A stretch of DNA of 9,124 nt from Microcaldota archaeon. GTDB taxonomy: Archaea; Micrarchaeota; Micrarchaeia; Anstonellales; Bilamarchaeaceae. Below, piece by piece: positions 7,218 through 8,175 of this stretch. Each line of letters begins with the position of its first letter. Position 1 is the stretch's first letter. Under the pieces are notes generated by a model. That model searched no databases and was not told the origin of the DNA. It worked only from the letters and a program-made list of their open reading frames with translations. Made by a program: the position numbers and the translations under genes. The stretch is taken from positions 1 to 9,124 of the forward strand of contig DAOUYQ010000019.1 in NCBI GenBank assembly GCA_030666035.1, written 5' to 3'.

Positions 7218-7310
7218 ATGGAAAAAGTAGACCGAAAAATGCTCAGGCTCGGAGTTCTTCTGCTGATAGTAGTGCTGATGGACATCTGGATAGTCTGGAG
7301 GGCAGCATAA
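7218..7310 (+). CDS. 30-residue single-span membrane peptide
   Basis: A short frame begins at ATG 7218 (Met-Glu-Lys-Val-Asp-Arg-Lys) and ends at TAA 7308-7310. Residues 1-10 are charged (K3, D5, R6, K7, R10), residues 11-26 are almost wholly hydrophobic (GVLLLIVVLMDIWIVW lies at 12-27, with one Asp at 22), and R28 is followed by Ala-Ala. This is a typical small integral membrane peptide. A TATA-like box about 24 bases upstream fits a leaderless message. GGAG at 7204-7207 is an alternative weak Shine-Dalgarno site. The buried Asp could mediate helix-helix contact, so it may be a regulatory subunit of a larger membrane protein. The function is unknown and the call rests on composition and promoter spacing. 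Confidence 0.6.
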   Translation: MEKVDRKMLRLGVLLLIVVLMDIWIVWRAA

Positions 7311-7343
7311 GAGAATAAGCTGTGCTGCACCAACCAGGCAATG

Positions 7344-7354
7344 CATAAATTTTT
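7344..7354 (+). promoter_or_regulatory. TATA box upstream of the long hairpin RNA
   Basis: CATAAATTTTT is a good archaeal TATA box on the plus strand. The predicted transcription start is near 7372, about 30 bases before the hairpin at 7401-7468. No convincing coding sequence follows at leaderless distance; the open frame from ATG 7368 crosses the hairpin and clashes with the regulator gene. The T5 run could also help end the transcript of the 30-residue gene. Confidence 0.5.
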
Positions 7355-7371
7355 CGGTTAATACCCTATGA

Positions 7372-7470
7372 AAAGAAAGCAACAGAAACACTTTACTATC
7401 TTCTGCAGAGGGCAGGTGTGTTGGTGTGCGCAGCACACTAACATACCTTTATTTAGCCCTCTGCAGAATA
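7372..7470 (+). ncRNA. Putative structured RNA or 5' leader with a 29-bp hairpin
   Basis: Bases 7401-7413 (TTCTGCAGAGGGC) pair perfectly with 7456-7468. Bases 7414-7429 (AGGTGTGTTGGTGTGC) pair with 7433-7448 around a GCA triloop. The only irregularity is a 7-base one-sided bulge, TTATTTA (7449-7455). Two of the 29 pairs (7423-7439 and 7418-7444) are G-U in plus-strand RNA but would be C-A mismatches in minus-strand RNA, which argues for selection on a plus-strand transcript. A TATA box at 7344-7354 places the RNA start near 7372. It may be a free small RNA, a long leader of the winged-helix gene, or a DNA cruciform. It lacks the ACA box of an H/ACA guide. The RNA ends are estimates. Confidence 0.45.
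7401..7468. repeat. Long imperfect inverted repeat (13 + 16 bp arms)
   Basis: At the DNA level the outer arms are identical over 13 bp and the inner arms match at 14 of 16 positions. The outer arm holds a PstI-like CTGCAG palindrome at each end. No clear target-site duplication flanks it (left flank ends ACTATC, right flank begins TAATAT), so a recent mobile-element origin is not supported. TTTATTTA in the bulge resembles a TATA box and could act as a second promoter. Confidence 0.85.
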
Positions 7471-7483
7471 ATATCCATATATC

Positions 7484-7529
7484 GGGGGGAATCAGGAGGA
7501 ACCTCAAACTGAAGGGGGGTGTCCCCCCT
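7484..7529 (+). promoter_or_regulatory. Two G6 tracts competing for one C6 tract around an orphan AGGAGG
   Basis: GGGGGG at 7484-7489 and at 7514-7519 can each pair with CCCCCC at 7523-7528. The near pairing gives a 7-bp stem with a TGT loop (7513-7529). The far pairing also gives 7 bp (7484-7490 with 7522-7528) and encloses AGGAGG (7494-7499), a strong Shine-Dalgarno sequence with no start codon at normal distance. Such mutually exclusive structures in a leader can control expression of the downstream gene. The switch is inferred; the pairings are visible. Confidence 0.35.
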
Positions 7530-7554
7530 GCGGTTCGGAATGAGATTGGTTGGA

Positions 7555-8175
7555 ATGGACGACACTATAAAACTGGACCGGAGAAGTTTCGAAGCTTTGG
7601 CAGCAGATTCACGGGTGCGCATACTCAAATCCCTGGCACAGCAGAGGAAAACCCTCACTGAATTGGCAAAAGAAATTGGGCTCTCCAACTCAACTATGAA
7701 AGAGCACCTGGATGTGCTTGTGAGGGCCGGGCTGATTATCCAGCGGGATGAGGGGAGGAAATGGAAATATTATGACCTTACCCGCAAGGGGCATGGAATT
7801 GCGAGCCCGCATCCTACACGTGTTTTGATTATGCTTGCACTTAGTCTGCTCCTGGTTATGGGAAGCGGATGGAATTTTATTAATGCATATGAATTGCATT
7901 CATTTGGGGCACAGGATGCTGCAGTTGCCCTGGGGGAAAAAGAAAGTGCATTTATTGTTGCGGAAGCGGTCCCACCAGCGATGGAAGCTGCCGAAGAAGC
8001 TGATGCATCCAGGGAAGAAACAGTGGCTGTGGGAGCAGCATTCCAGGAAGAGCCTGCAGAAGCAGGCCTTATGGGAATCTCCTTCCCATATTTTGAGGCT
8101 ATCCTCATGGGATTGAGCGTATGCATATTTGTTCTCTCGCTCTATTATGCTAAGAGGGCATATTCTCTTGCATAG
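7555..8175 (+). CDS. Membrane-anchored ArsR-like winged-helix regulator
   Basis: From ATG 7555 the protein has 206 residues. Residues 7-80 are a winged-helix DNA-binding domain. It opens with LDRRSFEALAADSRVRILKS; the recognition region follows (TLTELAKEIGLSNSTMKEHL, 33-52), and then a wing (RDEGRKWKYYDLT, 64-76). TM1 lies at about 88-108. Residues 110-175 are an Ala/Glu-rich acidic loop and TM2 is at about 181-198, with a short basic end (KRA). The head and both ends should be cytoplasmic and the acidic loop outside. This is the layout of a one-component membrane sensor-regulator. In-frame starts at GTG 7519 and ATG 7540 are possible, but the extra residues are unlike the family. No clear Shine-Dalgarno site precedes any of them. 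The structured region upstream suggests RNA-level or autogenous control. Stop-to-stop distance to the convergent transglutaminase gene is six bases. Confidence 0.85.
   Translation: MDDTIKLDRRSFEALAADSRVRILKSLAQQRKTLTELAKEIGLSNSTMKEHLDVLVRAGLIIQRDEGRKWKYYDLTRKGHGIASPHPTRVLIMLALSLLLVMGSGWNFINAYELHSFGAQDAAVALGEKESAFIVAEAVPPAMEAAEEADASREETVAVGAAFQEEPAEAGLMGISFPYFEAILMGLSVCIFVLSLYYAKRAYSLA

Follow-up and report, generated by a model that had tools for sequence, protein, structure and literature searches.

The question raised by this locus is whether the long hairpin at positions 7401–7468 of the plus strand is an undescribed small RNA or a leader of the neighboring gene, as the initial annotation had proposed for this window (the whole stretch of 9,124 nucleotides analyzed, from a Microcaldota archaeon). 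A copy count for the arms bears directly on this: the hairpin is multi-copy in the genome and makes up the 5' part of a unit that runs to 7538. It is the 5' arm of an approximately 140-nt copy (7401–7538) of a dispersed repeat, and no stand-alone small RNA. Because the genome holds 21 copies, because these lie before, behind and inside unrelated genes, and because many are flanked by target duplications, we consider the unit to be a mobile repeat rather than a small RNA or leader tied to one gene.

The fold itself was reproduced. Folding of positions 7395–7475 returned an outer stem of 13 bp (7401–7413 with 7456–7468) and an inner stem of 16 bp (7414–7429 with 7433–7448), giving 29 bp closed by a GCA triloop (7430–7432) and interrupted on the 3' side by a 7-base bulge, TTATTTA (7449–7455). 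The energy of the folded segment was −49.7 kcal/mol, compared with −18.6 ± 2.7 kcal/mol for shuffled sequences (z = −11.4), and none of 200 shuffles equaled it. Both wobble pairs, read off the sequence, are G-U on the plus strand. A search of the window against Rfam found no family at or above its gathering score, in agreement with the earlier statement that the hairpin matches no known RNA family. With permissive settings, a minus-strand match to the mir-2831 microRNA precursor was obtained at 28.9 bits (E = 0.00057, against a gathering score of 90), which we took as the resemblance that any long hairpin would have to it.

As read from the printed copies, a clear long hairpin is present in 14 of the 21 copies of this genome (L013 being a variant form), is interrupted by inserted hairpins in 4, and is missing in 3. 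When copies of this genome were laid out ungapped, 125 of 130 cells paired in the outer stem (10 copies) and 138 of 144 in the inner stem (9 copies), with double changes at 12 of the 29 pairs; for either stem the pairing count was reached by none of 2000 shuffles, a test inflated by kinship among the copies. These stem counts omit, on account of indels, L016 (both stems), L022 (outer stem), and L014 and L012 (inner stem), and, on account of inserts or another sub-design, L010, L013, L023, L025, the L017 copy at 2515–2670 and the L018 copy at 1657–1704. Read as plus strand, the non-Watson-Crick cells comprised 22 G-T, 7 A-C and 4 others. At one site with an ortholog in a congeneric species (L023 compared with L289), 23 of 85 bases differ, and the 28 hairpin pairs divide into 20 unchanged, 1 with a single change, 4 with double changes, and 3 broken. 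The plus strand is thus the folding strand, as had been proposed, and the arms change with compensation rather than diverging without it, although they do so in a repeat rather than in an RNA gene. Even a strong hairpin on the plus strand whose arms show compensatory changes is not necessarily an RNA gene.

The long 5' hairpin was seen in this genus only; the copies inspected elsewhere carry other 5' parts or none, and 4 of 11 copies in genus g9 have another 5' part in common, GCGTAAGG. Within this genome, the stretch before the hairpin (7386–7400, plus strand) recurs with variation in the same place in several other copies, as judged by eye and unscored. The A/T-rich joint that follows the hairpin (7469–7483, plus strand) also recurs among the copies; counted with the hairpin's final bases, it starts GAATAATA, a word present in 13 of the 21 copies. 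By eye, small double-hairpin units (hairpin, AGAAG, hairpin, CAGA) were observed in this genome, inserted in the loops of elements and upstream of them (L017, L018, L019 and L025, and the upstream parts of L010, L012, L014 and L020). A similar unit was seen, again by eye, on a contig that bears a tnpB gene (L305), and for this reason the units may be remnants of IS605-type elements. Longer inserts of approximately 70–90 nt, with arms that look complementary, lie in the G/C hairpin and are shared by L017 and L022 and likewise by L038 and L039; these may be additional mobile hairpins that sit inside the core.

Among relatives, the most widely shared part of the repeat is the 55-base segment past the joint, 7484–7538, and not the hairpin. 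A query with 7300–7560 gave 28 matches in the genome of origin and matches in 14 of 40 genomes (this one and 39 relatives), and from the aligned cores a covariance model of 57 positions (R1) was made. The order of the whole repeat, 5' to 3', is long hairpin, A/T joint, G-tract 1, linker with a mini-hairpin, AACTG, G-tract 2, short loop, C-tract, and GCGGTTCGG. In the window, all on the plus strand, G-tract 1 (GGGGGGAA) occupies 7484–7491 and is predicted from the mirror-cell counts given below to be a third strand, mirroring G-tract 2. The linker mini-hairpin, AGG-AGGAA-CCT with three pairs, lies at 7494–7504. The core hairpin, at 7507–7535, is built of an AACTG/CGGTT base helix, an A.G mismatch, an A-T pair, and the two tracts, G-tract 2 (7512–7519) pairing with the C-tract (7523–7529) across the loop TGT. 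The element ends with CGG (7536–7538), the fixed 3' end at which flanking duplications begin in other copies.

Pairing in the core was assessed over 100 distinct rows. The core hairpin is paired in 98.4% of cells, with double changes at 8 of its 12 pairs, and the mini-hairpin in 83.7%. For the whole core, 95.5% of cells pair and double changes occur at 10 of 15 pairs, in an alignment that had been fitted to the structure; sliding the partner by 1–3 columns as a control lowered the paired cells to 48–63%. One pair of the core hairpin is U-G in 99 of the 100 rows where the other strand would give A-C, which indicates that the plus strand is the folded strand here as well.

Run over the genome of origin at E ≤ 0.01, the covariance model detected the 21 copies. 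With the cut-off at E ≤ 1e-3 it had hits in 35 of the 84 genomes searched in the order, and at E ≤ 1e-5 in 44 of the 301 searched in the phylum; these 44 are all labeled as of the same class or nearer and fall into 11 families. Other genomes also have many dispersed copies, up to 28 in G045, with 20 in G043, 12 in G013 and 9 in G024. A degenerate pattern, which catches close variants only, was scanned over one genome each of 84,980 species and gave 22 stretches, all in records labeled as Micrarchaeota, Diapherotrites/(I)ainarchaeum, archaea without a group name and, once, Altiarchaeales; the same pattern had no match in viral contigs. Distant BLAST searches with 7400–7545 found no match in phage and plasmid collections, and in the open-licence PMC literature we found no account of this element.

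G-tract 1 is the mirror image of G-tract 2, neither its direct repeat nor its complement. Pairs of tract 1 with tract 2 include GGGGGGAA with AAGGGGGG, GGGGGAGG with GGAGGGGG, GGGGGGAGA with AGAGGGGGG, GGGGGAGGAAA with AAAGGAGGGGG, and GGTGGGGG with GGGGGAGG. The 46 distinct variants, which represent 131 copies, give 322 cells, and 294 of these satisfy the rule that tract 1 has the same letter or a T over an A; this count omits 15 copies because of inserts or parsing failures, and a few mis-parsed rows remain in it. When G-tract 1 was swapped between copies, 2000 trials averaged 212 and never exceeded 239, a comparison again inflated by kinship; a direct-repeat reading gave 209. Over the G's of G-tract 2, tract 1 has G in 207 of 214 cells; over its A's (54 cells), tract 1 has A in 41, T in 4 and G in 9, and the 9 cells with G run counter to the rule. 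Also running counter are a few copies that keep the mirror with an A of G-tract 2 facing G instead of T. The mirror cells match the triplets of an antiparallel purine-motif triplex (G.G-C, A.A-T and T.A-T), and the mirror rule is what such a triplex demands. A three-stranded hairpin is accordingly the predicted fold of the plus strand of the element. Alternatively, G-tract 1 could be part of a quadruplex or could pair with the C-tract.

Movement of the unit was examined by means of its flanks. For each copy a repeat of the downstream flank, counted from the last two bases of the core, was sought in the 350 bases upstream. A direct repeat with a score of at least 13 starting at the 3' end of the core was found for 30 of 146 copies, compared with 1 of 845 swapped-flank controls; the other 116 copies (3 of them unsuited to the test) had no flank repeat at that score, and the copy in the window had no detectable one. 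The 30 repeats are 13–153 bp long. Sixteen of them begin at the first base after the core and the rest at −1 to +6, and between the upstream repeat and the core lie 1–174 bases, so that the 3' end is fixed and the 5' end variable. Note that two of the 30 have another possible cause, L035 lying within a local repeat array and the repeat of L197 being a tRNA T-arm word. Uninterrupted orthologous sites with one copy of the repeat were found in relatives for 6 of 19 loci queried (L013, L015, L022, L026, L174 and L228), the 19 consisting of 18 of the 30 plus L015, whose 9-bp repeat falls below the score limit. At two more loci (L023 and L134) the empty site was recovered in two collinear pieces, and for the other 11, among the matches listed, none extends 30 bases past the repeat on both sides. 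The flanking duplications and the empty sites show that the unit moves.

No strong motif was found at the target when the 30 sites were pooled over genomes, with at most 0.25 bits at any of 20 positions around the target point. As for the 5' part of the element, the 18 copies from G043 have no 8-mer common to 3 or more of them within 70 bases upstream of the core, and in 23 copies from G045 only A-rich words and TCGAGGAC (3 copies) recur there. Within four of the longest duplications, the first 11–44 bases past the target point are the same in both copies, and the differences beyond them are mostly synonymous, amounting to 22 bases and one amino acid in L228, five bases and no amino acid in each of L153 and L132, and four bases and one amino acid in L174. 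Simple duplication does not account for this pattern; it is as if the restored gene end had come from the allele of another lineage (species).

In the window, the element stands immediately before a gene for an ArsR-type winged-helix regulator with hydrophobic C-terminal segments (7540–8175, plus strand; PF01022, 45.5 bits), whose ATG is one base further than the end of the copy. The orthologs of this gene in three relatives (L286, L287 and L288) have no element in front, and DNA similarity to them starts at 7547–7548, the element and the stretch preceding it being without counterpart. The earlier argument from a TATA box and the start site predicted from it thus finds no support. In L286 a similar short hydrophobic frame, identified by eye, is separated from the regulator gene by 29 bases, compared with 229 bases here, which indicates that about 200 bases were added in the window. 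The frame in the window (7218–7310, 30 residues) lies between a minus-strand gene and the element, and its counterpart by eye stands directly before the regulator in L286; it is possibly a small membrane protein partner of the ArsR-type regulator.

Other copies are found upstream of start codons, downstream of stop codons, next to tRNA genes, and in frame within protein genes, where they add a short peptide to the host frame. Of the two in-frame cases, one is in argS of this genome (L024, 121–1857; arginine--tRNA ligase, 535 bits with a cut-off of 460) and the other in a trpE-like frame of a species in the same genus (L033, 593–2083; best model TrpE-arch, 489 bits versus 512, in two stretches). 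The 3' end of the element lies within 3 nt of a tRNA gene end, overlap counted, for 15 of 144 copies (139 loci). Nine of these contacts are with the 5' end of a tRNA on the same strand (L031, L043, L150, L155, L165, L173, L175, and two in L176) and six with the 3' end of a tRNA on the opposite strand (L148, L164, L168, L181, L187 and L230); some, the tRNA-Cys and tRNA-Thr cases, are orthologous. A protein-gene boundary falls 0–10 nt from the 3' end in 34 of 146 copies, which looks like over-representation on the basis of unreviewed open frames. Selection in such compact genomes may explain the placement at gene ends, and we therefore draw no mechanism from the preference for tRNA and gene boundaries. 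By eye, an opposite-strand copy was also seen inside an apparent intron of a tRNA-Arg gene (L034), a tRNA that ARAGORN did not report.

The reading that we consider somewhat probable is that of a non-autonomous mobile DNA element. Its plus strand would fold into the three-stranded hairpin, probably as single-stranded DNA, and the folded strand would be inserted at new sites with its 3' end fixed and the target duplicated, by an enzyme that would act in trans. From the sequences we infer three things: that the triplex forms, that the DNA is single-stranded, and in what order insertion proceeds. The combination of a fixed 3' end, a variable 5' end and duplications of variable length suggests insertion defined at the 3' end, and the mirror rule favors DNA as the folded strand. 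Speaking against a DNA element is the range of the duplications, 13 to 153 bp, which is unusual for a transposase; further points against the reading are the synonymous differences within the longest duplications and the 116 copies, the one in the window among them, that have no flank repeat at the score limit. A DDE-type MITE would have target duplications of one length, unlike those seen here. On general features, likeness to group II intron domain V and to integron attC was dropped, neither agreeing with the 3' end, the duplications and the mirror tract of the element. As for the enzyme, searches of this genome, which is 82% complete, detected no reverse transcriptase, Y1 transposase, tyrosine recombinase or Cas1. 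Across the order, a Y1 transposase is present in 20 of 83 genomes and a reverse transcriptase domain in 19 of 83; among 26 hand-chosen genomes, a tyrosine recombinase is present in 15 and Cas1 in 2. None of the four is constant across carriers. More tentatively, as a proposal that falls short of probable, the element would represent a class-wide family of gene-less minimal mobile elements in Micrarchaeota-group archaea, in which a strand of 57 nt folds up as a hairpin with a purine-motif triplex and is copied to new sites from a fixed 3' end, the target duplications ranging from 9 bp to over 100 bp.

The main rival is a retroelement, in which a reverse transcriptase would copy a plus-strand RNA with a fixed 3' end into a nicked target by target priming, as SINEs do. 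The geometry of the ends and duplications taken alone fits reverse transcription of an RNA equally well. A fixed 3' end, a variable 5' end and variable duplications are the classic geometry of target-primed reverse transcription, and the element has all three, with its 1–174 nt of 5' extras. The wobbles on the plus strand likewise count in its favor, and RNase P would free an RNA with about this 3' end at the nine copies that lie within 3 nt of the 5' end of a same-strand tRNA; the six abutting the 3' end of an opposite-strand tRNA count against it. The enzyme itself is found in G043 (one) but not in G000 (this genome), G013, G024 or G045, whose assemblies are incomplete (82–92%). Moreover, the mirror rule points to a purine-motif triplex, a structure that has been reported not to form in RNA (PMC4666352). 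Taking both sides together, we consider a retroelement rather unlikely.

That the copies constitute a family of regulatory RNAs, the one in the window being a small RNA or the 5' leader of the ArsR-type gene, appears very doubtful. The strength of the plus-strand hairpin, its compensatory changes, its retention at an orthologous site in two species, and the position of the window copy one base ahead of a start codon all fit such a role, but a regulatory RNA accounts neither for copies behind stops, beside tRNA genes and inside the argS and trpE frames, nor for target duplications and empty sites, nor for the absence of the element before the gene in the three relatives examined. Still less probable is RNA-guided homing, with the core as the guide scaffold of a TnpB/Cas12f-type nuclease and the guide just past its 3' end, empty alleles being cut and then repaired from filled ones. 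The foreign-looking synonymous changes in the duplication copies fit repair from the allele of another species, and a TnpB/Cas12f domain scored above cut-off in 12 of 16 element-bearing genomes, this one included, compared with 0 of 10 element-free genomes (one of which had a match below cut-off); these genome sets were hand-chosen, and the overall load of mobile elements may explain the association. In G000, G043 and G045, however, the tnpB hits are not adjacent to the listed cores, lying on other contigs or, on one G043 contig, at least 12 kb away, and G029 and G035 have 7 cores each and no tnpB hit. No core-like sequence was seen by eye behind the tnpB genes, the longest frame examined in L302 and L305 not being tnpB. 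The lack of a strong motif before the target in the 30 pooled sites is a further point against homing, and together with the distance of the tnpB hits from the listed cores it speaks against a TnpB guide RNA (omega RNA) as the identity of the core.

Several classes of small repeats resemble the mobile DNA element that we favor. SINE-type retroelements are non-autonomous, with a fixed 3' end, a variable 5' end and target duplications of variable length; the ends and duplications found here are of this kind and the element is likewise probably non-autonomous, whereas a poly-A or simple-repeat tail was not seen and no reverse transcriptase is constant in the same genomes. Mitochondrial double-hairpin elements and GC clusters are very small gene-less mobile repeats made of hairpins. 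In being small, gene-less and hairpin-built they are like the present element; we know of no mirror G-tract in them, and they belong to another domain of life. Rickettsia palindromic elements are small palindromic repeats that lie in frame inside protein genes, and the copies within argS and the trpE-like frame are similar, the hosts being unrelated and the likeness one of description.

The closest known systems are the triplex-forming repeats of methanogens and BoxC of E. coli. A mark of purine-motif triplex repeats, a third-strand tract that mirrors the purine strand of a purine:pyrimidine hairpin, is present in the element as a sequence. For the recurrent potential G-quadruplex repeats (rPQS) of the Methanomicrobiaceae, a hairpin with an antiparallel G-rich third strand has been reported in solution (PMC8044849). 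As far as the accessible portion of that report goes, rPQS are like the present element in being archaeal, multi-copy and intergenic, in the order G-rich, G-rich, C-rich on one strand, and in having a single non-G base per G-rich tract, A in the second. They differ in that their G-rich tracts are 3–5 nt apart, compared with about 20 nt here, where the linker holds the mini-hairpin and the AACTG/CGGTT base helix follows; they also belong to a methanogen lineage, and neither target duplications nor empty sites nor a fixed end are mentioned in the same portion (PMC8044849). BoxC / TM_ECO / PIT of E. coli and other bacteria are dispersed repeats with a purine-motif intrastrand triplex, such as is predicted for our element, with C-G-G triplets and T-A-A or T-A-T allowed (PMC4666352). 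In the available part of that account they are of class II, with the C-tract first, the third strand 3' and short loops, whereas the element is of class I with the third strand 5', and its linker of about 20 nt between G-tracts lies outside the 1–6 nt of the ITxF loop definition (PMC4666352). The same part links BoxC with instability and does not describe insertion with target duplication (PMC4666352).

Triplex-forming repeats have thus been described in bacteria and methanogens in reports whose accessible text contains no account of how they multiply (PMC4666352, PMC8044849). In the element described here, the mirror rule is backed by natural covariation across a phylum, and this raises two questions, whether the purine-motif triplex forms and whether a triplex is the recognized form of a mobile element. 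If the proposal of a class-wide mobile family is true, the same may hold for the repeats of this kind in methanogens and E. coli, which would then be mobile elements and not sites of regulation or instability.
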